From Candidatus Thiodiazotropha sp. LNASS1 (GTDB lineage: Bacteria; Pseudomonadota; Gammaproteobacteria; Chromatiales; Chromatiaceae): a stretch of 64,000 nt of DNA. The first letter of the stretch is position 1; each line of letters opens with the position of its first letter. Below the pieces are notes generated by a model. The model did not search any database. It worked only from the letters and a program-made list of their open reading frames with translations, and had not been told where the DNA came from. Shown piece by piece: positions 33,605-60,813 of the stretch. The position numbers were made by a program, and so were the translations under genes. The stretch is taken from contig NZ_OZ156465.1 in NCBI RefSeq assembly GCF_964212655.1, positions 3,100,001-3,164,000 of the forward strand, read 5' to 3'.

Positions 33605-33698
33605 ATATCGTTCCCACGCTCCAGCGTGGGAATGCATACGGCAGGTAGGGTATCAGAGAGATATGAGTTCCCACCCAGGAGCGTGGGAACTAGAACAA
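33605..33698. repeat. 94-bp dispersed repeat, copy 1
   Basis: Two GTTCCCA/TGGGAA hairpins flank a 30-bp middle with CATACGGCAGGTAGGG. Copy 2 at 39351-39446 matches almost base for base. It lies between the SH3 gene and the hydrolase gene, in a 316-bp gap with no other feature. Non-coding. Confidence 0.75.
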
Positions 33699-39350: not shown

Positions 39351-39446
39351 ATATCGTTCCCACGCTCCTGCGTGGGAATGCATACGACAGGTAGGGCATC
39401 AGAGAGAGATATGAGTTCCCAAGCAGGAGCGTGGGAACTAGAGCAA
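39351..39446. repeat. 96-bp dispersed repeat, copy 2
   Basis: Near-identical to 33605-33698: ATATCGTTCCCACGCTCC, then CATACGACAGGTAGGG, then GGAGCGTGGGAACTAG. It lies upstream of the ceramidase-like gene in a 533-bp gap that holds no other supported feature. Confidence 0.75.
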
Positions 39447-48498: not shown

Positions 48499-49629
48499 TC
48501 ATCCGCCTTCCATGCGTTGCCATTGCGGCGCTAGTTGCGCGACCACACGCATCGGTCGTTGACAGCAGGGACAGGCAAAACACCAACGGGCCACCTGCTT
48601 CTCTGTTTCTGATTCAACCACCGCTTGTAGGCCTGCCTCGGCGATCGCCTTAAGGATGCGGGGCAACTGCCTGGCCCGGCAGGCATTGGCCAGGAAGCCG
48701 TAATGGCGGATACGCATCAGGCCCTTGGGTAGTACATGCAGCAGAAAACGCTGGATCAACACATCGACAGACAACTGCATGACCTTCCAGCGCCGGTCCC
48801 GGTAGTCTTTGTAGCGCAAGCCAACCTGATCCTGCTCCAAGCCCAGGAGTCGGCGGTTGCTGACGGCAGTGCGGTGGGTGTATCGGGCCAGATAGTCGAT
48901 GACATGCTCGGTGCGCAGACAGGGCTTGCTGTAGACCACCCAGTCTTGTCCCATCAACCGCTCCAGGATGAGATCGATCTCGCCCGGACGACTGATGCGT
49001 GTGAGCTCCCCGCCTTGGGCACAGGCCCGCAATCGGCTGACCATCAGACCGCGAAAGCGCCTTGAGAGCGCACGCACAGGAAACAGATAATCGCTCTTGC
49101 TCGGTTTCCACTCGCCTTGCGGGCTCAGCGCGCCGCCCGGCACCAGGCAGTGCAGGTGCACATGGCGTGTCAACGTCGAGCCCCAGGTGTGCAACACCGC
49201 GGTCATCCCCAACCCCCCGCCCAAGCGCTTGGGGTCTTCAGCGAAGGCCTGTAGCGTCTCCCAGGTTGTTTGAAACAGCAAGGTCGTGATCAGCTGAGGA
49301 TACAGTTCGATCCAACCGTTGAGGGTCTCGGGCAGGGTAAACACCAAGTGATGATAGGTTACCGGCAATTGGGCACGCAACTGCTTGTCCGCCCACTGCC
49401 GCGAGGCTTGCCACTGACAGTGCGGGCAGTGACGGTCGCGACAGGCATAGTAGTGGTTTTGATGCGCCTGACAAGGGTCACAGGCTAAGCGTACCCCACC
49501 CATGGCTTCAGTCCGGCACTGCATCAGATGTGACAATACCTGACAGCGGCGCAGATCGAGACGGTGGTGTTGGCGGTAGGTGGGCAGGTGGCGCTTGAGC
49601 AGGGTTTGCAGGTCGATGGCCTCAGCCAT
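48499..49629 (-). CDS. IS91-family HUH transposase
   Basis: 376 residues from ATG 49629. The N-terminal zinc motif is CDPCQAH...CRDRHCPHC, the HUH motif RHVHLHCLVPGG, and the catalytic Tyr region YLARYTHRTAVSNRR. A C-terminal zinc pair CPCCQRP follows. Rolling-circle transposase, apparently intact. Its ATG overlaps the recombinase stop by 8 bp (ATGGCTGA). Confidence 0.92.
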   Translation of the reverse strand: MAEAIDLQTLLKRHLPTYRQHHRLDLRRCQVLSHLMQCRTEAMGGVRLACDPCQAHQNHYYACRDRHCPHCQWQASRQWADKQLRAQLPVTYHHLVFTLPETLNGWIELYPQLITTLLFQTTWETLQAFAEDPKRLGGGLGMTAVLHTWGSTLTRHVHLHCLVPGGALSPQGEWKPSKSDYLFPVRALSRRFRGLMVSRLRACAQGGELTRISRPGEIDLILERLMGQDWVVYSKPCLRTEHVIDYLARYTHRTAVSNRRLLGLEQDQVGLRYKDYRDRRWKVMQLSVDVLIQRFLLHVLPKGLMRIRHYGFLANACRARQLPRILKAIAEAGLQAVVESETEKQVARWCFACPCCQRPMRVVAQLAPQWQRMEGG

Positions 49630-50479
49630 CGCGCAGCCCCAGCGCTGCAATCAAATCGGCGCCACGGCGATCGCTCTGACGATCATTGAACACCCAATGT
49701 ACATAGCGCAAGGTCGATTGGATGCTGCGGTGGCCCAGTTGATACTGCAACTGCTGCACTGCCATGCCGGCCTGCAGTTGATGGGTAGCATAGGCGTGTC
49801 TCAAGCTGTGGATGCCACCCACCTTGGTGATGCCCGCCTGGCGCTTAGCCCGTCGGAATACCTTCTGCGGCGTGCTGATCGACAACGCTTCATCGGGATG
49901 CTGTTCATTGGGAAACAGCCAGCGCACAGGCTTCTCAACGTGCCAATAGTCACGCAGGTGCTTGAGCAACGTCGGCGACAAGCCCACATAACGGTCCTTA
50001 CCACCCTTGCCCTGATCGATGCGCAGCAACCCGCGTTCTCCATCGATATGCCGAAGCTCGAGTTTGACCAGTTCACTGACCCGCAGGCCGCAGCCATAAC
50101 AGGTCAGCAATAGCATATGGTGCTTACGGTTGGAACAGGCATTGAGCATGCGTACGATCTCCGATCGCTGGAGTAACTCCGGGATACGTTGCCTGCGTTT
50201 GGGCACCTGAATCTTCACATCGAACGACGCTTGCTGGAGCACTTCGAGATAGAAGAAACGGATGGCATGGCGATAGAGCCGGCAACTGGCATCGCTTAAG
50301 TGCCGTTCCTTGACCAGATACAGAAAGTAAGCTTGCAACTCATCCTCACCGAGTTGATCCGGGGGACGCTGATAATAACGGGCCAGATCCTTCACCGCCA
50401 TCAGATAGCTCTGGTGGGTACGCGGCGAAAATCCACGCACGGTCATGGCGTCTATCATCTGTTCGCGAAGTTGTGTCAT
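49622..50479 (-). CDS. Tyrosine recombinase of the IS91-type element
   Basis: 285 residues: SAM-like N-terminal domain (FSPRTHQSYLMAVKDLARYY) and catalytic domain with Arg in CGLRVSELVKL, HSLRHAYATH, LGHRSIQ and Tyr in TLRYVH. All catalytic residues are present. Accessory integrases of this kind precede the transposase in several IS91-family elements. They may resolve dimers, but that is inference. Confidence 0.9.
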   Translation of the reverse strand: MTQLREQMIDAMTVRGFSPRTHQSYLMAVKDLARYYQRPPDQLGEDELQAYFLYLVKERHLSDASCRLYRHAIRFFYLEVLQQASFDVKIQVPKRRQRIPELLQRSEIVRMLNACSNRKHHMLLLTCYGCGLRVSELVKLELRHIDGERGLLRIDQGKGGKDRYVGLSPTLLKHLRDYWHVEKPVRWLFPNEQHPDEALSISTPQKVFRRAKRQAGITKVGGIHSLRHAYATHQLQAGMAVQQLQYQLGHRSIQSTLRYVHWVFNDRQSDRRGADLIAALGLRDG

Positions 50480-50837: not shown

Positions 50838-51623
50838 CTATTCTTCTTTGTGAAGCCGCCGCCAAGGCAGACTGAACAGCGATGTGGTCTCTAACGGTGG
50901 ATTGATTGCGATCTCATAGGCCCGCATAAGGTTCTCCTCCGACAAGACTGCTTCGACTTCGCCGTCGGCGAGGGTGCTGCCTTCATAGAGCAGTTGCAGT
51001 CGCTGACAGTAATGGGCGGCAAGGTTGAGGTCGTGCAGGACGACGATGACGGCGTGTCCCGCCTCGCAGTGTTCACTGAGCAGGGTCATGACGTCGAGTT
51101 GATGGGCGGGATCGAGGGCGGAGACGGGTTCGTCCGCCAGCAGGATGTCGGGTTCAGTGACCAGGGCGCGGGCGAGCAGGACGCGGGTCTGTTCGCCGCC
51201 GGAGAGGGTGTTGAATGCGCGATGCCGCAGGGCGAGCAGGTCGGTCTGGCAGATGACCCGTTCGATCAGCTTTCTGTCCTCTTGCCCGGGGGCCTGCCAG
51301 GGTTCCAGGTGGGGGGTGCGACCAAGCGCGACGATCCGCTCCACGCTCATGGGCCAGGCGATCTCGCTCAGCTGGGGCAGGTAGGCAATACGCCGCGCCC
51401 GCTCGCTGCGTGGGACCGAGCTGATGGGTGTCCCGTTGAGTGAGAGGCTGCCAGTGTCCGACTCGATCACACCCGCAAGCAGGCGTAGCAGGGTGCTTTT
51501 GCCTGCGCCGTTGGGACCGATGAGGCCCAGCATCTCTCCCCGCTCGAGGACGATATCCACGTCCTGCAGGATCGGTTGGTCGTTCCGTGTCACAAAGAGC
51601 GACTCGCCGTAGAGCAGACTCAT
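50838..51623 (-). CDS. btuD: Cobalamin ABC transporter ATPase
   Basis: 261 residues: Walker A GPNGAGKST, Q-loop LPQLSEIAW, signature LSGGEQTRVLLARAL, Walker B ILLADEPVSALD and switch His in VLHDLNLAAHY. The ATG at 51623 overlaps the btuC stop (ATGA); the longer open frame to 52040 is out-of-frame translation of btuC. Last gene of the riboswitch-controlled operon. FecE/BtuD family; B12 specificity is by context. Confidence 0.9.
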   Translation of the reverse strand: MSLLYGESLFVTRNDQPILQDVDIVLERGEMLGLIGPNGAGKSTLLRLLAGVIESDTGSLSLNGTPISSVPRSERARRIAYLPQLSEIAWPMSVERIVALGRTPHLEPWQAPGQEDRKLIERVICQTDLLALRHRAFNTLSGGEQTRVLLARALVTEPDILLADEPVSALDPAHQLDVMTLLSEHCEAGHAVIVVLHDLNLAAHYCQRLQLLYEGSTLADGEVEAVLSEENLMRAYEIAINPPLETTSLFSLPWRRLHKEE

Positions 51624-52618
51624 GACCCACGGCTCCTGTGGTGCAGGATCAGCCAGAGAAAGAAGGGGGCGCCGATGAGGGAGGTGACCACGCCGACCTT
51701 GATCTCGCCCTGTACCGGCAGCAGGCGGACCCCCATGTCGGCGAGCATCAGCAGCAGTGCCCCGCCCATGGCGCTGGGGATCAGCAGCCGGCTGGGCTGG
51801 TAGCCCACCAGGGGGCGCAGCAGGTGGGGCACCACCAGGCCGATGAAGCCGATGGCGCCGGTGACCGAGATGGCTGATCCCACCGCCAGGGCGACGGCGA
51901 GAAAGAGGCGTCTTCTCAGATTGGGCAGGTCGGCGCCCATGGAGCTGGCGGTCTCTTCGCCCAGGGTGAGGAGATCGAGGGGGCGGCCCTGTCGCCAGAT
52001 CAGCAGCCAGCCCAGAATTGTACCGGGCAGCAGAATCCACAGCTCGTTGCGGCTGACATTGGCCAGGGAGCCGAGCATCCAGAGGGCGATCTCCTGCACC
52101 GCGTAGGGGCTGGGGGCCAGGTTGAGGAGCAGGGAGACCAGGGCCAGGGCGAAGGCGTTGACCGCCACCCCCGCCAGGATCAGGGTGAGGGTGCCCCCGT
52201 CGCGACCGGCCAGGAGATAGACCGTCAGGGTCGCCAGCAGGGCACCCGCCATGCCCCCTAATGGCAGCGCGAAGGCGAAGAGACCGGCGACGCCGAAGTA
52301 GAGGGTGATCACGGCACCCAGGGCCGCGCCGCTGGCGCTGCCGACCAGGCCGGGACTGGCCAGGGGATTGCGCAGCAGGGATTGCATCACCGCGCCGCAG
52401 AGGCCGAGGGAGGCCCCGGCCAGCAGGGCGACCAGGGTTCTCGGGATGCGCAACTCGGTGAGGATCAGGCTGTAGACGCCGGGCGTTTCGCCGAAGCTCT
52501 CCTGCAAGGCCTGCAACAGCGGCAGGGGTTGGCTGCCGATCGTTAGGGAGAGCAGGGCGGTGATGACGATAGCGCCGCCGAGTGAGAGCATCAGCCGGTG
52601 TTGTCTGATCGAGGTGAT
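51620..52618 (-). CDS. btuC: Cobalamin ABC transporter permease
   Basis: FecCD/BtuC family permease with about nine to ten membrane segments and motifs LRIPRTLVALLAGASLGLCGAVMQ and LLRNPLASPGLVGSASGAALG. The frame is open to 52738, but those first 40 codons read through a REP palindrome (MDPGFRRDDE), so they are not protein. GTG at 52618 (VITSIRQHRLML) is the best start; ATG at 52591 is possible. The stop overlaps btuD. Confidence 0.87.
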   Translation of the reverse strand: MTSIRQHRLMLSLGGAIVITALLSLTIGSQPLPLLQALQESFGETPGVYSLILTELRIPRTLVALLAGASLGLCGAVMQSLLRNPLASPGLVGSASGAALGAVITLYFGVAGLFAFALPLGGMAGALLATLTVYLLAGRDGGTLTLILAGVAVNAFALALVSLLLNLAPSPYAVQEIALWMLGSLANVSRNELWILLPGTILGWLLIWRQGRPLDLLTLGEETASSMGADLPNLRRRLFLAVALAVGSAISVTGAIGFIGLVVPHLLRPLVGYQPSRLLIPSAMGGALLLMLADMGVRLLPVQGEIKVGVVTSLIGAPFFLWLILHHRSRGS

Positions 52619-52710
52619 CACACGGAGAACCTGTTTGGTGGGTATGCGATAAGTGATACTGACGGTACCTGCTCGGTCCAGCTCGATAACAGATCTGCAG
52701 GGACTATCTT

Positions 52711-52782
52711 CGTCATCCCGGCGAAAGCCGGGATCCATATACTGCCGCTACCTCCTGGATCCCGGCTTTCGCCGGGATGACG
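52711..52782. repeat. Perfect 26-bp REP palindrome between btuF and btuC
   Basis: CGTCATCCCGGCGAAAGCCG continues to GGGATCC and is matched exactly in inverse at 52757-52782, with a 20-nt loop. The hairpin lies in the transcript between two operon genes and could stabilise or cut the message. It is the same family as the pair at 20108. Confidence 0.8.
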
Positions 52783-52827
52783 GGATGGTGGAGGGTCGTG
52801 TATTGAAGATACGTCGGCTATTTGCAT

Positions 52828-53655
52828 TTAATTGTTCTTCCTCTCTCTTGCCTCACGTAGCAGCGCCACCGCATCGGCCAGCATCGGCCCGGGGCAGATC
52901 CAGTACTTGTAGGGTATCTCCACCATGGGACGCTTTGCCAACAGGCGTTTCAGGGCGGGGTGGCGCAGCTGTCTCTCCGCCAGGGAATCCCCCGAGCCGC
53001 TATAGGCGGAGTTGAAGATGGTCTCGGGTTGCCAGTGCAGGACTTGTTCCAGCGGCACCGGGGTATAGCCTTCGACGCCCTGCTGTGCCGCCAGGTTGTG
53101 CCAGCCCGCGAGTCGCAGGGCTTCGTCCTGCAGGGTGTCGCTACCGCTTGTATAACCGCGGGGTTGTAGAAAGATCGTAGTGGTTGGGTGAGCGGCTTTG
53201 GCTGCGCCGGACTGCAATCGTTGCTGCATTTGTTGTATCAGCGATTCACCCCGCGACCTCTGGCCCAGCCGGGCGGCCAGTTGGCGAATGTCCTCAACGA
53301 TATCCTCGAGGCGGTGACCGAGGGAGAGCTGATGCAGCGGGTAGCCCAGCTGCTCGAAGGTCGTGCGCAGGCGTGGATTGGTGTGGGGGGTGACCAGTAT
53401 CAGATCGGGTTTGAGACGGATGATCTCCTCGGCCCTGGCATGGTTGAGGGGAAAGGCCGCAGCCGCATCCGCGACGAAGGAGCTGTCGGGATCACGGGAG
53501 AGGTAGCTGACCGACGCCACCTGTCGGGGGTCGGCCAGCATCAACAGCAACTGATCGCTGCAGAGGTTCACCGACACCACCCGTTGGGGCGGCTCGGCGG
53601 CGACAGCCATACCTGAGATGAGCATCAGCAGTGTGGCGATCGCTTTAATCTGCAT
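52828..53655 (-). CDS. btuF: Periplasmic cobalamin-binding protein
   Basis: 275 residues: signal peptide (cut near AVAAE), then a class III binding-protein fold with RVVSVNLCSDQLLLMLADP and RAEEIIRLKPDLILVT, as in BtuF. Hands B12 to BtuCD. The start lies 3 bp after the btuB stop. Confidence 0.85.
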   Translation of the reverse strand: MQIKAIATLLMLISGMAVAAEPPQRVVSVNLCSDQLLLMLADPRQVASVSYLSRDPDSSFVADAAAAFPLNHARAEEIIRLKPDLILVTPHTNPRLRTTFEQLGYPLHQLSLGHRLEDIVEDIRQLAARLGQRSRGESLIQQMQQRLQSGAAKAAHPTTTIFLQPRGYTSGSDTLQDEALRLAGWHNLAAQQGVEGYTPVPLEQVLHWQPETIFNSAYSGSGDSLAERQLRHPALKRLLAKRPMVEIPYKYWICPGPMLADAVALLREARERKNN

Positions 53656-53658
53656 AAC

Positions 53659-55617
53659 CTATTCGATGCGGTAGTTCAGGGTCAGCCAAAGGTTTCGCTC
53701 CGGTGCCGGGAAGAAGGCGGCGCGTCGGGTGAAGCCGGTATCGAATCCGACAGCGCCGGCATTCGAGTACTGTTTATCGAGCAGGTTATCGATCCGCAGG
53801 CCGATGCGCCAGGGGCCGGTGGTGAATTGCGAGCCCAGGTTGACGACGCCGTAGCCGGGCAGCTCTTCGAAACGGTTGCCGAAGTCGCCGCCCAGTACCC
53901 GTTGGCTGCTGAAGAGGCCTTCGGCATAGAGATGCCATCTCTGTGACGGGGTCCAGTCAGCGGAGAGACGACCGGTACGGGCGGCCACCAGGGGGATGCG
54001 GTTGCCGTCAAAGGGACCGTCCGTGATACTGGGGTCGGTGTAGGTGAGGCTGCCGTTTAGCGTGATAGTGGGCCGGACCTGCCAGCTGCCCTCCAGCGTG
54101 GCGCCCTCGCGTCGTGTCTCGTCCAGGTTGATATTGCTGAACTCGGAGGCGTCGAAACTGATCTCGTTATCGAGATCGAGCCGGTAGATCACCAGTTTGG
54201 CGTTGAAGCCGGGCCTGCGCCACTCGGCGCCGGCCTCTTGGGAGATACCGGTCTGATTCTCAAGCCCCACCGGTTGACCGAAGACCGGGTTGGTGTGTTC
54301 GTCCACGGTGGCGAAGCGAAAATTCTCATCGACACGCACGAACAGGCGCAGAGAATCGTTCGCCTGCAGGCTGACGCCAAGGGCGCCGACGCTCTCGGAG
54401 TCGTCCAGCTGATCGACACCGGCGAAGCTCTCGATAGCATTGTCTACCGAGGCGTGACGAAAACCGGCGGTGACCGTGATGCGGTCGTTGGCGGGTAGGG
54501 TGACTTGGGCGTAGACGGCATCCACCGATTGATCGAGCAGGGTCGGACCAAAGCTGGTCTGAAGTGCATAGTCGGTGCGCTCCAGGTCGGCGCCGGCGGT
54601 CACCCGGGCCTCGCCATTGGCCATCGGGTAGACGCCGATAAAACGGGGATTGAAGCCTTTGACGGTTCTCTCCTGGGTGGCGAGCGAACCGGGGAAGGTG
54701 CGAAAGCCGGTTTGGAACTCACGGTCGTTGTCGCGGTGGGTCAGCTCGCCTTCGAAGGACCAGTAGCGGTCCAACTGCTGATGCAGGCCGAACCGGCTGA
54801 CGTCTGTCTCGGTTTCGCTGAAGTCGCCGGCATAGGCGGCGGCGGACTGCCTGCGGTTTTGCGCAAGCTCATCCGCAAAGAGGGAGCCCGGCAGCTGCTG
54901 AAAATGATCGATCCGCTGCTGCTCGAAGAAGAGACCGCCGCGCGCGTATTCATAATCGAGGCGCAGGTTGAAATCGTTGCGATCCGTCTCGTTGTTGTCG
55001 CGGTAGTTATCGCTGATACGGCGCTTGGCGGAGAAGCGATAGGCCAGCCCGTTGTCGAGCCGGTTGCTGATGTCGGCATAGCCTTCGCGGCCTTTGTAGC
55101 TGCCGGCAGCAATTGCGATGTCGGCGGAGAATGCCTCAGGCTCACGGGTGATGATGTTGACCATGCCGCCCACCGCCTGGTTGCCGTAGAGGGTGCCGGC
55201 GCTGCCCTGGACGATCTCGATCCGCGTCACCCGGCGCAGGTCGATGGCGTTGAGATCCGGCGCGGCGATGTCGCTGGGGTTGTTGAGGCGCCGTCCGTCC
55301 ACCAGGATCAGGGTGTTGGAGCCCGCCGTGGGGCCGAACCCCCGCATGTCGATGGTGGCCTGGCTGCCGTCGCCGTAGAGGCTGTTGATCTGGATGCTGC
55401 TACGGGACTGCAGCAGTTGTTGCAGGTTCTGCGCGCCGCTCTGTTCGATCTCATCCCGCTCGATCACCGTAATGCCGGCCGGGGTTTCGATGCTTGTCTG
55501 TTCCGTGCGCGAGGCGCTGATGACGATGGTGGGCAGATGCGATGCCGCCAGTAGCGGCAGGTTTGCCGCTAACAATATACCGGCCGTTGACCACCGGCCT
55601 TTGTTGGAAAGTTTCAC
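53659..55617 (-). CDS. btuB: TonB-dependent outer-membrane receptor, B12 type
   Basis: 652 residues from GTG 55617, which has GGGAG eight bases upstream; the longer frame to 55728 crosses the riboswitch leader. Signal peptide, TonB box TIVISASR, plug domain with LQSRSSIQINSLYG and IVQGSAGTLYGNQAVGGMVNIIT, and 22-strand barrel ending NLWLTLNYRIE. Cobalamin specificity comes from the riboswitch and btuFCD. Confidence 0.92.
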   Translation of the reverse strand: MKLSNKGRWSTAGILLAANLPLLAASHLPTIVISASRTEQTSIETPAGITVIERDEIEQSGAQNLQQLLQSRSSIQINSLYGDGSQATIDMRGFGPTAGSNTLILVDGRRLNNPSDIAAPDLNAIDLRRVTRIEIVQGSAGTLYGNQAVGGMVNIITREPEAFSADIAIAAGSYKGREGYADISNRLDNGLAYRFSAKRRISDNYRDNNETDRNDFNLRLDYEYARGGLFFEQQRIDHFQQLPGSLFADELAQNRRQSAAAYAGDFSETETDVSRFGLHQQLDRYWSFEGELTHRDNDREFQTGFRTFPGSLATQERTVKGFNPRFIGVYPMANGEARVTAGADLERTDYALQTSFGPTLLDQSVDAVYAQVTLPANDRITVTAGFRHASVDNAIESFAGVDQLDDSESVGALGVSLQANDSLRLFVRVDENFRFATVDEHTNPVFGQPVGLENQTGISQEAGAEWRRPGFNAKLVIYRLDLDNEISFDASEFSNINLDETRREGATLEGSWQVRPTITLNGSLTYTDPSITDGPFDGNRIPLVAARTGRLSADWTPSQRWHLYAEGLFSSQRVLGGDFGNRFEELPGYGVVNLGSQFTTGPWRIGLRIDNLLDKQYSNAGAVGFDTGFTRRAAFFPAPERNLWLTLNYRIE

Positions 55618-55744
55618 AGTAAGACTCCCGATGACGCACACCCGCGCCGATGGTTGGGTTGAGTGTGTGCAGAGGGAGGAGAGACGGATCAGCGTTGAAT
55701 GTGCTGGGCGCGTCCCCATGCCGCCCACCGCAACACAGCGAATC

Positions 55745-55915
55745 GCCCAGGCCGGTATCCGGACTTACAGACTGTTCTCACCCGATACCGCGCCTTCCCA
55801 TGGTTCGAATCCACAGTGGCCTGTTGCGGCATCTCGTCTGTTTACCGTTGCGGGGGCAGTGCAGGCGTCTCACCTGCTTCCCGTTTACCCCGGCTCGCGC
55901 CGGGCACCTGAGGCA
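55745..55915 (-). ncRNA. Cobalamin riboswitch controlling btuB
   Basis: Reading the minus strand: CAGGTGCCCGG opens the element, then GGGAAGCAGGTG, the core CTGCCCCCGCAACGGTAA, GCCACTG, GGGAAGGCGCGG and finally the B12 box AGTCCGGATACCGGCC at about 55748-55766. It precedes the btuB GTG by about 130 bases. CTGGGCG/CGCCCAG after the box could form the expression platform. Represses B12 uptake when cobalamin is abundant. Confidence 0.9.
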
Positions 55916-56025
55916 GGCGACAAAACTACAGCGATGATACGGTGGGGTCAAGTAGCAGTATCCTTGGGATAGGATGTCTGAAGCATGCTTGAGACAGGGA
56001 TCTCCCAGGATAACCCGGGATCGGG
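55789..56025. repeat. Direct repeat, copy 1 (riboswitch 5' half plus upstream)
   Basis: 237 bp nearly identical to 58945-59179. Here it forms the first part of the complete riboswitch and continues into sequence that reads, on the minus strand, DPGLSWEIPVSSMLQT, the same tail as the methyltransferase at 59102. That tail is cut off on its upstream side here. Confidence 0.85.
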
Positions 56026-56652
56026 GCTCCGGCGAAAAGCGGCCATAATATCTTACGATCCCTTCACCCGACACATACATTTGCATAACCCGTCAATCCC
56101 TGACCGTACCCTCACAAACCGAGCCATGAGCTATGTAGGATTTCCTTGTGCATTGACCCTAATATGGAACTCCATAAGGCCGAGGAGGACGACGATTAAG
56201 CCTTGATAGCAAGCACCCGATGGTTGATTCGTGGATCGTACCGACACCTCTGGGTTTTGAGGTGCGAATGAAATGGCTGGCACAGCAGCATCAGCCTCTG
56301 AGTGTCACGATGCCGGGAAGTAAGGTGGGGAATCGTTCTTCTGGTAGAAAAAGTATTAACCATTCACAGGCTCAAATCCCGAGTCACCTGTTTCGCTATG
56401 GTCGCCCAATGACCGAAACTGAACTCCAACACCTCGCCACGCAACCTGCCTCTGCGCCGTTTCGGATAAACCTATTCAGCGATCGAGGCATGCTTGACAG
56501 CATCCTTACGATCGCGTAATTGTTTAGCTTCCGTTACCAACAACCCTATTCGAAGTATAGATTGTGGTATTGAAAACAGCGGCGAGGAGGGGGGTAATGA
56601 TTATTTTGGATCCGCCTTTGGACGCTTCTTTATAATTACCATACATCATACA
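56026..56652. other. Leader of the inserted module
   Basis: 627 bp between repeat copy 1 and the lipoprotein ATG. A 99-codon frame at 56220 has no recognisable pattern. No terminator or RNA gene recognised; probably carries the lipoprotein promoter. Confidence 0.3.
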
Positions 56653-58920
56653 ATGCCTAATATATACAATATCCTAACGCTACTGATTTCGTTTGTAATA
56701 CTGACGGGGTGCAATGATTCCGAGCGCGAGCAAAATGCTTCTGCCGCAACGATATCGGGCCGATTGATCACCAACGTTGTTTCAGATGAGTCATCCACCA
56801 CCTGCCCCAGTGCTGCGGTAAAGATTTTGGTTTTGCGTGAGGGCGAAACTGTTTCACAAGCCAGCATTACACAGGAATGTGATTTTGAAGTTGATATTCC
56901 GGCAGAGACTCCAGTCTCTCTCAGATTCGTAGATGCTTCAGGAAGCGATCTTGGCGTACTTATCTATGGTAATCCTCGTGTCAGTCAGGGGGGAAGGCTG
57001 GAGGAGTTCATCGACCAATTCCAACTGCCATTGGGCGCAAATGAAGAAATCGGCAACATCCTTTTGCTGCCGAACCATGCTATAGCGCTTCTCCAACGAA
57101 ACCCATTGCTTTATCAAGACAGTGATGGTGATGGTGTGGCGGATGCAATGGATGCTGATTTCAAAGTATTTGAATTGATCTCTAATCGAGATGTTGATAA
57201 CGACGGCATCGAGAATGAGAGTGATAACTGCCCTTATGAATCAAATCTAAGCCAGGAAGATACTAACCAGGATGGCAAGGGTGACGCTTGCTCCATTACG
57301 CCAGATATGCCGCTATACGGCCAATTGACTTTGAGCCTGGTCAAAAAATTGGCCACACAGGAAGAAGTCCAGGCAATCATTGATGACCCCACACTTCTGG
57401 ATTCAACCCTTTTAGGGGTATCTGAAGATGATCCCAATACCATTGTATTTGGACCCATACCACAAGGGGGCAATTGGGTTATCACACAGAATCAGAAGAT
57501 TATGATTGACCCTGATGGTTATTTTACCCTAGACCCAATAACAGATCCCGGCTCCGGGCTTGCGGTTGTCGTGAGAGAACCAACGGCTGATAAGCCATTG
57601 TTTACCTTTCCGCTGCATAAATTGAGCACGGATCCTTTGAACCCAACGGTGATCGACATCAAGGGCGCCTTCCCAAGACCATGTGGCATGGATGGCGATG
57701 TTTGTCATAATCCAGATACTGGTGAAAAAAGAGATGCATTACACCAAGCCAAACTTGTAAATACCGATTTGCCCCCGATAATGCCGAATGAAGAGCAAGG
57801 TGATGAGGGCGTCTCTGGAAATTGCAAAGAGGATTACAATACGTATCCCTGTTGCTTGGACTACGACGGCCCCCTGGCGGGCCCCGATGCTGAACCACAA
57901 ACCGATTCAGTGACGGAGGTCCAAGTCTACCTAGGCTCCACCTGCCATGAATCCGTCCTGCACAACTGCTGCACAAATGAGAGGGGAGACTTCGCCTATC
58001 GTGCTGTAGAGATCTTAAGGTTATTCTCTGATGAAATCGATGAGTTGTATGAGCCAATCGGGTGTCATGACAATCATAAAAAAAGGAACTGCCAATGGAT
58101 TGACTATGACACCGACCAGCGAGGCCTTTATTTATCCGCCACGTCTCCAAGCATTATTCAACGTTCCGCGCGATACCAAGAGAATACCCGCCCACAAACA
58201 GGTTCACTATATATCGAAAATATCGTTGTAGCCTGCGGAGAAGAGAAAACACTTTACCTATACAACAACACATGCAGAAATGAAACGGTCCTCCACTTTG
58301 AACGTAATATCGGCGGCACTGCAAAACTCAACGCCGACGGTGTTGAAAATGAGAGGGAAATTCCCGCAAACGAGCGCGCCAATCCGTTGGTTGTACGACA
58401 TTACAAAGATGGTGTAGACAGTTTTATCTTTCAACGATCCATAACCTACACAGCGCCATCGGAGGCAGGCTCGGCCGATGCCATTTCAGTACAGGCTGGA
58501 GGCATTCATCGACGTGTCAATATCGAAGTGGTTTGTGAAAACACCGTTATAGAGGATTCCCCGCCAGAAGAGGAAGAGGAAGTCACGGAACCGCCACCGG
58601 CAACTTCCCCTGAAATTGGTGTCCCTGAACAGACGGCGTTCCTATTCGATCACTACATCGGTGAGTCGCCCTGTCCCCAGGAGATTGGTCAGCTCAATAT
58701 CGGCAATAGCGGGGATGGCACTTTGACCTGGAGGATTGAGAATACTATCCCATGGCTGGATGTGGTGCCAACAAGTGGCATTGCTCCATCCACCGTATCA
58801 CTTCGATTCAATTGTAATGTGAGTGGCCCTGGCAATCTCAGTGGGAGCTTTACTATAGTATCGGATAACGCAATAAACAGTCCGGTATCAATTCCTGTGG
58901 GCGGGACGGTTCACCAATGA
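56653..58920 (+). CDS. Lipoprotein with thrombospondin-3 repeats and BACON-like domain
   Basis: 755 residues from ATG 56653. Lipobox at ILTGC, so outer-membrane or surface lipoprotein. Calcium-binding thrombospondin type-3 motifs: DSDGDGVADAMD and DVDNDGIENESDNC with DTNQDGKGDAC. The central part has many Cys pairs (CCLDYDG, CHESVLHNCC). After the EEEEEVTEPPPATSPE linker a C-terminal BACON-type beta domain (LTWRIENTIPWLDVVPTSG) follows. A longer frame to 56494 lacks a signal. Lies inside the repeat-bounded insertion. Adhesion or glycan binding is inference. Confidence 0.8.
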   Translation: MPNIYNILTLLISFVILTGCNDSEREQNASAATISGRLITNVVSDESSTTCPSAAVKILVLREGETVSQASITQECDFEVDIPAETPVSLRFVDASGSDLGVLIYGNPRVSQGGRLEEFIDQFQLPLGANEEIGNILLLPNHAIALLQRNPLLYQDSDGDGVADAMDADFKVFELISNRDVDNDGIENESDNCPYESNLSQEDTNQDGKGDACSITPDMPLYGQLTLSLVKKLATQEEVQAIIDDPTLLDSTLLGVSEDDPNTIVFGPIPQGGNWVITQNQKIMIDPDGYFTLDPITDPGSGLAVVVREPTADKPLFTFPLHKLSTDPLNPTVIDIKGAFPRPCGMDGDVCHNPDTGEKRDALHQAKLVNTDLPPIMPNEEQGDEGVSGNCKEDYNTYPCCLDYDGPLAGPDAEPQTDSVTEVQVYLGSTCHESVLHNCCTNERGDFAYRAVEILRLFSDEIDELYEPIGCHDNHKKRNCQWIDYDTDQRGLYLSATSPSIIQRSARYQENTRPQTGSLYIENIVVACGEEKTLYLYNNTCRNETVLHFERNIGGTAKLNADGVENEREIPANERANPLVVRHYKDGVDSFIFQRSITYTAPSEAGSADAISVQAGGIHRRVNIEVVCENTVIEDSPPEEEEEVTEPPPATSPEIGVPEQTAFLFDHYIGESPCPQEIGQLNIGNSGDGTLTWRIENTIPWLDVVPTSGIAPSTVSLRFNCNVSGPGNLSGSFTIVSDNAINSPVSIPVGGTVHQ

Positions 58921-58944
58921 AAAGAGGTAGATGAGTCAGATGTC

Positions 58945-59179
58945 GCGCCTTCCCATGGTTCGAATCCACAGTGGCCTGTTGCGGCATCTCGTCTGTTTAC
59001 CGTTGCGGGGGCAGTGCAGGCGTCTCACCTGCTTCCCGTTTACCCCGGCTCGCGCCGGGCACCTGAGGCAGGCGACAAACTACAGCGATGATAGGGTGGG
59101 GTCAAGTAGCTATATCTTTGGGATAGGATGTCTGAAGCATGCTTGAGACAGGGATCTCCCAGGATAACCCGGGATCGGG
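58945..59179. repeat. Direct repeat, copy 2 (truncated cobalamin riboswitch)
   Basis: Starts at CGCGCCTTCCCATGG and ends at GGGATCGGG, matching 55789-56025 with a few single-base changes. It holds the riboswitch from its 5' end to GGGAAGGCGCG, but the B12 box is missing, so it should not bind B12. It also encodes the last 26 codons of the methyltransferase. Confidence 0.88.
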
Positions 59180-59875
59180 CACACCGGTTTTTCGTGCCAG
59201 TACGGCGATACTCAGATTGATGGGCACCAGGTGTATTCCCGATGTTGTGTGGTCGCGGGATAGGGAGAGAATTCTTCCCGGTGTGCCTTCCTCGCACTCC
59301 AATATCTCGAAGCCTGTTTTCTCATTCAACAGGGTTTTGAACGTTTCCTGGGAAAAGCGCCAGAAGTCCCAGGGCAATTCGTGCGGCGGCCTCACCGGGT
59401 GAGTGGATATATAGAGTAATCCCCCGGTTTTGAGGACCTTGTTGATCTCGATGACCGCCTGCCATGGCATTGCCAGATGTTCGAACACCGATACCGAAAA
59501 CACGGCGTCGTAGTGCTCGCCGGGAAGAAGCGATGAGAGTGTATGGACGTCTCCAGTCACATCGACGTTTTCGCCCGGATGAATATCCATTCCCGTATAT
59601 TCGACAGTTGGACTGAATACTTCTCGCCAAACCACGCCGGTCACGTTTCTGGATCCGATCTCAAGAAGCGTCGCCTGCTCCATATCGTTGACCGATTCAA
59701 TGAAGTGGTTGAAAACCTTGTAGAAGGAATCTCTATTGATTTTTTTCTTAAAGGGAATCAGCAGCCAGCTTAAGCCCGTGAGCAGTGTGGTTGTCATCAG
59801 GTAGATGACAAAGCTTGCAATACCGTTTTCGCGAATATACCGAGGGGTCTTTTTAATCTGATTTAGCAGTTTCAC
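59102..59875 (-). CDS. SAM-dependent methyltransferase
   Basis: 257 residues. An N-terminal hydrophobic stretch (IASFVIYLMTTTLLTGLSWLLIPF) suggests membrane association. Methyltransf_11-type core with LLEIGSRNVTG, GMDIHPGENVDVTGDVHTL and VFSVSVFEHLAMPWQAVIEINKVLKTGG. The last 26 codons lie within repeat copy 2 and match sequence left at copy 1. Probably acts on a glycan or quinone-like substrate. Confidence 0.82.
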   Translation of the reverse strand: MKLLNQIKKTPRYIRENGIASFVIYLMTTTLLTGLSWLLIPFKKKINRDSFYKVFNHFIESVNDMEQATLLEIGSRNVTGVVWREVFSPTVEYTGMDIHPGENVDVTGDVHTLSSLLPGEHYDAVFSVSVFEHLAMPWQAVIEINKVLKTGGLLYISTHPVRPPHELPWDFWRFSQETFKTLLNEKTGFEILECEEGTPGRILSLSRDHTTSGIHLVPINLSIAVLARKTGVPDPGLSWEIPVSSMLQTSYPKDIAT

Positions 59876-60093
59876 GCTGACGCCAATCCCTGAAATAGGC
59901 CGTGGTGCGTTTTACTTTTTCGCCCCAACGCTTGAGTATGCGGAGTGCTGATTTCAAGAGGGAAAGCGATGTGGTGATGAAATCCCTTCAAGTGGCCGAC
60001 TCCGTTCAATTCGTTTTATTATACACCTTCACGGTTCTCGACCCGAATAGCCTTACAACCCGATTCATTCCGAACATTAATATTTCTCGTATC

Positions 60094-60711
60094 GTGATTA
60101 TCTATCTCCATGGACTCAACAGTGCCGGCAGTTCCGGCAAGGCGGCGGTGTTGAGCGCATCGCTTCCCGGCATACAGGTCATCAGTCCGACCTATCCTGC
60201 CCATACTGCGGCGAAAGCTGTCGAAACGCTCACTCAAACCCTGCGGCCTCTGATGGAGGATGAGAATAATGCTGACGAACCCTCGGTCATGGTGGGGAGC
60301 TCCATGGGAGGGTTCTACGGCGCCTGGCTGGCACAGAGGTTGAGACTCCAGCATCTAGTGATGATCAACCCGGCCCTACAGCCCTGGGAACTATTGCAGC
60401 AGGTGGTGGGTTGGCAGTACAACCAGGCCTTGGATGATCGTTACTATCTCTCTTCGGAAATGGTGGCCGATACACGGCAATATGCGGTGGAACCAAACCC
60501 CGAAGGGGTGCCGACAACCCTGCTGCTCGACAAGGGGGATGAACTGATCGATTACCGCATCGCCGAGGGGATCTATCAGGGGATCGGTGACATTCACTGT
60601 TTCGAGGGGGGGAGCCACACATTCGACCACATGGAGGAGGCGGTGGCGATCATCGCTGGGATTCATCGCTCGCTGGAAGAGATTAAGAAGTCCGCGAATG
60701 AACGCGAATAA
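60094..60711 (+). CDS. YqiA-type esterase, alpha/beta-hydrolase
   Basis: 205 residues from GTG 60094, giving MIIYLHGLNSAG as YqiA family members start; the ORF opens at 59902 but the extra 64 residues look non-native. Nucleophile Ser in VGSSMGGFYG, acidic residue in LLDKGDELIDY and His in GGSHTFDH complete the triad. No Shine-Dalgarno is clear, so the start is uncertain. The last eight codons lie in a palindromic repeat. Confidence 0.82.
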   Translation: MIIYLHGLNSAGSSGKAAVLSASLPGIQVISPTYPAHTAAKAVETLTQTLRPLMEDENNADEPSVMVGSSMGGFYGAWLAQRLRLQHLVMINPALQPWELLQQVVGWQYNQALDDRYYLSSEMVADTRQYAVEPNPEGVPTTLLLDKGDELIDYRIAEGIYQGIGDIHCFEGGSHTFDHMEEAVAIIAGIHRSLEEIKKSANERE

Positions 60712-60813
60712 ATGCAAATGTTTTTATATACGTACCCACGCGGGAGCATGGGAACTAGGTTTAATGGTGCGGCAAGCCGCACCCTACATGACATTCGCGT
60801 TTATTTGCGGACT
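60689..60813. repeat. MITE-like element between yqiA-like gene and topA
   Basis: AGTCCGCGAATGAACGCGAAT and its near-complement ATTCGCGTTTATTTGCGGACT (19 of 21 positions) enclose a GTACCCACG...CATGGGAACTAG hairpin and GGTGCGGCAAGCCGCACC. Same family as 30431-30527. The left arm codes for the esterase's last residues. Confidence 0.65.

Follow-up and report, generated by a model that had tools for sequence, protein, structure and literature searches.

A lipoprotein gene inserted within a cobalamin riboswitch, with duplication of about 240 bp of the target, in Candidatus Thiodiazotropha sp. LNASS1

How does a bacterial genome come to hold one cobalamin riboswitch in full and a large part of it a second time, on the far side of a lipoprotein gene? 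The question is raised by the window analyzed here, a stretch of 64,000 nucleotides from Candidatus Thiodiazotropha sp. LNASS1 (genome G000 below). Self-BLAST of the window aligns residues 55789–56025 with 58944–59179 as direct repeats with 97.9% identity over 237 columns and a start-to-start distance of 3155 bp, in agreement with the near-identical repeats of about 235 bp reported in a preliminary description of this DNA; the only other direct pair of at least 60 bp in the window is a 96-bp repeat at 33605/39351. Judged from the repeat alignment and from the match to the empty site in genome G005 (see below), the duplicated unit is 236–241 bp long, and it comprises the 3' end of a methyltransferase gene, a promoter-like element and three quarters of the riboswitch aptamer. 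Read along the minus strand, the methyltransferase comes first, followed by copy 2, the insert, copy 1, the remainder of the riboswitch and the TonB-dependent receptor (Table 1). Five changes separate the two copies: copy 1 has one inserted base and copy 2 has four substitutions, with G005 as the reference for the direction, which is uncertain for some of the sites; none of the four changes of copy 2 falls within its aptamer part. An assembly artefact is thought unlikely, given that the genome is a single contig rated 100% complete, that the copies differ by these five changes and that a 92% identical remnant of the lipoprotein gene is found elsewhere in G005.

Table 1. Features of the duplicated riboswitch junction (window coordinates)
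Feature	Position	Strand	Basis and remarks
TonB-dependent receptor	53659..55728	-	ORF; Pfam Plug and TonB_dep_Rec_b-barrel
Complete cobalamin riboswitch	55733..55926	-	RF00174, 114.6 bits, model 1-189
Copy 1 of duplicated unit	55789..56025	-	Direct repeat
Promoter-like TTGACC-N17-TAGTTT, copy 1	55923..55951	-	Pattern match
Insert between copies, 2913 bp	56026..58938	.	Absent from G005 locus
456-bp piece, left part of insert	56026..56481	.	No match in searches
Upstream flank carried with lipoprotein gene	56482..56652	+	72-79% DNA matches upstream of gene in five congeners
Lipoprotein gene, 755 aa, TSP_3 domain	56653..58920	+	ORF; Pfam TSP_3; lipobox by reading
Copy 2 of duplicated unit	58939..59179	-	Direct repeat 58944-59179; G005 empty-site match begins at 58939
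Truncated cobalamin aptamer in copy 2	58939..59081	-	RF00174 model 1-143 of 189, 3' cut, 85.6 bits
Promoter-like TTGACC-N17-TAGTTT, copy 2	59077..59105	-	Pattern match; hexamer TTGACC overlaps methyltransferase stop codon (by reading)
Methyltransferase gene, 257 aa, 3' end in copy 2	59102..59875	-	ORF; Pfam Methyltransf_11/12/23; genus homologues

Copy 1 belongs to a full B12 riboswitch, as had been proposed: the complete aptamer exceeds the RF00174 gathering score of 31.5 and lies upstream of a gene assigned by Pfam to the TonB-dependent receptors. The receptor, whose true start is probably near 55617 by reading, would be BtuB-like on account of this riboswitch and putatively under cobalamin control. 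Scanning the window with RF00174 yields a second match (58887–59080, minus strand) of 74.6 bits, again above the gathering score, whose 3' end falls in insert sequence. Scored on its own (58939–59180), copy 2 is matched by the first part of the model only, and since this match stops at model position 143 of 189 it lacks the B12 box, which we take to sit in the 3' quarter of the model, the part absent from copy 2; the loss of the box, already suggested in the preliminary description, is thus borne out despite the score of the naive scan. No sense-oriented gene follows directly downstream of copy 2, and it does not represent a complete riboswitch with a target of its own; its aptamer would be a remnant, not expected to sense B12. 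The case illustrates a pitfall of scanning, in which a truncated aptamer exceeds the Rfam gathering score and looks full-length. Genome-wide (4,746,093 bases, one contig), G000 contains just two RF00174 matches among the 150 of 224 first-look candidates that were scored, and exactly one match was recovered in each of 20 other members of the genus, a set without G005 in which up to 49 candidates were scored for each genome.

The methyltransferase frame continues through copy 2, and at copy 1 only its residues 224–257 are matched, at 74% identity, which corresponds to the tail described earlier as complete at one copy and cut at the other. Immediately ahead of the aptamer, and inside the duplicated unit, lies the pattern TTGACC-N17-TAGTTT. 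The more general form TTGA..-N17-TA...T is present in all eight sequences compared, namely copies 1 and 2 and the corresponding regions of G005, G008, G007, G006, G004 and G002; it is to this conservation that the element owes its label of promoter, since a generic promoter scan did not report it. Further along on the receptor side, an IS91-type transposase gene (Y2_Tnp, Zn_Tnp_IS91) adjoins a gene of the phage integrase family (window 48499–50479).

The junction was then compared in 22 genomes of the genus. The methyltransferase is matched in 12 of them, strongly in 10 (E 4e-40 or better) and weakly in G018 and G019. In G005, which belongs to the same species as G000 (97% protein identity), the methyltransferase is followed directly by one full riboswitch of 114.1 bits. 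Window segments 50839–56025 and 58939–60757 both align to the G005 locus (L048), where their matches overlap; this overlap, L048 10432–10672, is a single copy of the unit that matches both window copies. The methyltransferase adjoins the riboswitch without interruption, with other spacers, in G004, G006, G007 and G008 as well (in G004 and G007 the methyltransferase match is broken into two pieces), and in none of G004–G008 do two copies of the unit surround the module. In G001, G003 and G009 the two features lie on separate contigs. Because G005 and four other genomes are uninterrupted, the 2.9 kb between the repeats represent an insertion with a long target duplication, and because the four outgroup genomes are empty the insertion is probably the derived state. 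The former contiguity of methyltransferase, riboswitch and receptor, and the insertion of about 3.1 kb with a long target duplication, both put forward in the preliminary description, are therefore supported, the insert itself measuring 2913 bp and the unit being single in G005.

The empty site of G005 could itself have arisen by reversion, through recombination between the repeats, because the copies differ from each other about as much as G000 differs from G005 (98.9% identity over 3333 bp and 97.8% over two overlapping stretches, in two other regions). Divergence from G005 is patchy on the receptor side, with 92% identity overall versus 98.8% on the methyltransferase side, so that recombination with another strain may have taken place there. 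In G002, methyltransferase and riboswitch are separated by about 1.5 kb of different sequence containing two genes (L049 7846–9420, G002:C27); neither gene gave a Pfam match, and no long direct repeat was found in it. Near a topoisomerase gene, G005 has several tandem copies of a stretch of 85 bp (L048 8606–8814 vs. window 60673–60757).

The insert comprises the lipoprotein gene with its flank and a piece of 456 bp. Full-length homologues of the lipoprotein, with 82–84% protein identity, are encoded in five of the 21 other genomes of the genus (G001, G003, G009, G010 and G021); in G003 (L080) the gene lies beyond nuoN, as named by reading, and this locus is collinear with those of the four remaining genomes. 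The DNA matched in these congeners extends at the furthest from 56482 to 58935, its right end being a few bases from copy 2. The inserted gene with its flank has a G+C content of 47.6%, the L080 gene one of 47.4%. At the nuoN loci of G000 and G005 the lipoprotein gene is absent, and G005 retains a remnant of 235 bp (L085 6068–6302, G005:C71) adjoining apparent insertion-sequence genes, identified by reading. Over this stretch the remnant is closest to the inserted gene (92% vs. 83–90% for the five others), and for this reason we consider that the lipoprotein gene was probably present in the species before the insertion, either a move within the genome or a source in another strain being compatible with the sequences. 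About 170 bp to the left of the remnant recur at six places in G000.

The 456-bp piece forms the left part of the insert. The five genomes that match the insert do so from 56482 on, over most of that part, and without the 456 bp. No match to this piece was found in the 22 genomes of the genus, beyond itself in G000, among 274 genomes of the class, G000 being one of them (for the 20 genomes listed as lacking a match, two candidates apiece were scored), or among phages and plasmids. Rfam applied to 55600–59400 gave no match in it; a single match below threshold fell in another part of the insert. A sensitive comparison with ten loci and the window returned just stretches of 18–29 bases with E values of 0.26 or worse. 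As regards the insert as a whole, neither the ORFs nor Pfam reveal a recombinase gene, and its ends share no word of at least 6 bases in inverted orientation over 60 bases, hence no terminal inverted repeats; the recombinase gene and terminal repeats of a transposon- or integron-like element are both missing.

The history that emerges is very likely in our view: methyltransferase, riboswitch and receptor stood in a row, and a 2.9-kb fragment with the lipoprotein gene was inserted inside the riboswitch, the landing site of about 240 bp being duplicated. For the molecular route we infer staggered nicks, fill-in and joining of the fragment between the copies, and give this an even chance. Two nicks, one in each strand and some 240 bp from each other, would produce a break with long overhangs, their filling-in would generate two copies of the stretch, and a DNA fragment would be joined between these with little or no homology. 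History and route taken together carry a confidence slightly better than even. The duplicated unit completes the methyltransferase on one side and, towards the receptor, provides the putative promoter together with the 5' part of the aptamer; the insertion would have been tolerated for this reason. A long target duplication can in this way let an insertion enter a regulated junction with both sides kept complete. The 456 bp without a matched source suggest that the fragment may be composite, a feature that template switching explains equally well.

Indeed, template switching during replication would yield the identical product and is the first alternative to be weighed. A fork stalled in the structured riboswitch would have taken up the lipoprotein fragment and the 456 bp by copying from elsewhere, and would then have resumed about 240 bp upstream, so that the unit was replicated a second time. 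The composite nature of the insert, a known gene fragment with 456 bp of other origin, fits this scheme well, and the switch point would lie within a folded RNA gene. However, a source of the 456 bp was not found in the same genome, where the piece matches only itself, and the sole comparable junction, blurred by divergence, displays no clear microhomology. We regard template switching as possible but on balance unlikely. Homologous recombination in the unit, with an incoming circle or donor fragment that brought its own unit copy, would give exactly the observed arrangement by one crossover; a circle model has been put forward for the repeat-flanked transposed genes of Arabidopsis (PMC2869330), and the receptor side shows partial divergence from G005. 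On the other hand, the six loci with the lipoprotein gene (L080–L085) contain no stretch of the duplicated unit and no match to copy 2, and homology-driven entry is disfavoured because of this; the two RF00174 matches of G000, among the candidates scored, likewise speak against a donor. This route is clearly less probable than not and rather improbable.

A mobile element making long target duplications with its own or a borrowed recombinase, of which the insert would be one product, is very unlikely: a second structure exists about 38 kb away, and the distance from the receptor-side repeat to the genes for the IS91-type transposase and the integrase is only about 5 kb, but the insert has neither recombinase nor terminal inverted repeats, and the second structure differs in cargo and target sequence. 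These transposase and integrase genes are located outside the insert and no link between them and the insert was found; an element with a recombinase is unsupported. Finally, a regulatory role of copy 2, for instance through antisense transcription running into the lipoprotein gene at its 3' end, is hardly credible, for although copy 2 retains the promoter-like element and its own four changes spare the aptamer part, it lacks the B12 box, has no sense gene directly downstream and is known from a single genome.

The riboswitch was probably involved incidentally, as the mere landing place of the insertion; no evidence for an element that targets it was found in this analysis. A tRNA-like integration site had been considered, as the aptamer presumably contains a stretch resembling a tRNA T arm, and was dropped after ARAGORN identified no tRNA in the window. 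Islands integrated by tyrosine recombinases at gene ends likewise restore the interrupted gene through a direct repeat, and in this respect they resemble the present locus. They differ in that no integrase is seen in the insert and no tRNA in the window, and the usual attachment cores of such islands are much shorter than the repeat of about 240 bp.

The preliminary description knew of no element producing such a duplication; this remark has to be withdrawn, since the phenomenon is already described, in passages of PMC1643837 and PMC3031569, as insertion with long target duplication. The term goes back to Nobusato, Uchiyama, Ohashi and Kobayashi (2000, Gene 259:99–108) on Helicobacter pylori, as cited in PMC1643837, PMC3031569, PMC3874152 and PMC4978471. 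The duplications are presented there as long and variable, "in the order of 100 bp" (PMC3874152), and as "frequently associated" with restriction-modification genes (PMC1643837). The locus studied here shares with the cases so cited a cargo present in G000 and absent from a close relative, and long direct repeats of target sequence. An uninterrupted target in a relative, a single unit at the empty site and a repeat at least of the order of 100 bp are all observed. It differs, as far as these citing passages go, in the length of the duplication, about 240 bp versus an order of 100 bp, and in its cargo and site, a lone TSP_3 lipoprotein gene at a riboswitch junction instead of mainly restriction-modification genes, an association not treated as defining here. 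The insertion thus belongs to a kind already described, its cargo and its target both being unusual. The transposed genes of Arabidopsis, as reported in PMC2869330, are similar in that an ordinary gene has moved and the flanking direct repeats match the target site of a related species; their authors favour circle formation and recombination. Arabidopsis is, however, a eukaryote, and the donor expected from circle recombination was not found here. Our literature search returned no paper combining riboswitch, target duplication and insertion, and none combining Thiodiazotropha and direct repeat. The locus provides a clean example, with an empty site in the same species, of a gene moved without an adjacent transposase.

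Direct repeats of at least 80 bp and at least 80% identity, separated by at most 25 kb, were surveyed in 1,688,001 of the 4,746,093 bases of the genome (8,294 N). This survey yielded 19 rows, and in seven rows both copies fall within the surveyed part: the riboswitch pair, the 96-bp window repeat, 3197083–3197691 vs. 3200839–3201702 (two rows), 318281 vs. 320673, and a long pair each at 441544 (1259 bp) and at 629986 (1689 bp). The pair represented by two rows delimits the second structure mentioned above (G000:C1:3197083–3201702, L145–L146), in which a gene named hdrB-like by reading and its partial tail copy bracket four open frames. Three of these were scanned against Pfam, giving HTH_3 with Peptidase_M78, SocA_Panacea, and no match, respectively; the frames with matches are predicted to be antitoxin-like or HTH/IrrE-like. 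Among the six relatives chosen for comparison, G002 shares the module at 98.9%, and G004, G006, G007 and G008 contain the hdrB-like region once, with no module and no second tail, the gene beyond the tail copy being unaligned in these four loci, which hence do not define an empty site to the base. In G005 the hdrB-like region is matched once and the module not at all, with the matches split over two contigs. It is conceivable, and we consider it distinctly unlikely, that the genus possesses a recurrent, transposase-less route by which ordinary genes or antitoxin-like modules are inserted with duplications of a few hundred bases and persist where both neighbours are rebuilt, the riboswitch and hdrB-like insertions being two of its products. 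Together with the second structure nearby, the locus makes the origin of long target duplications testable within one genus.

The repeat at G000:C1:318281–318507 and 320673–320892 (228 bp, 85%) surrounds an apparent REP-associated transposase gene and two small genes, assigned by reading. The 96-bp repeat of the window (33605–33698 and 39351–39446, 91.7%) has a palindromic core, GTTCCCACGCTCC, and looks like a dispersed repeat.
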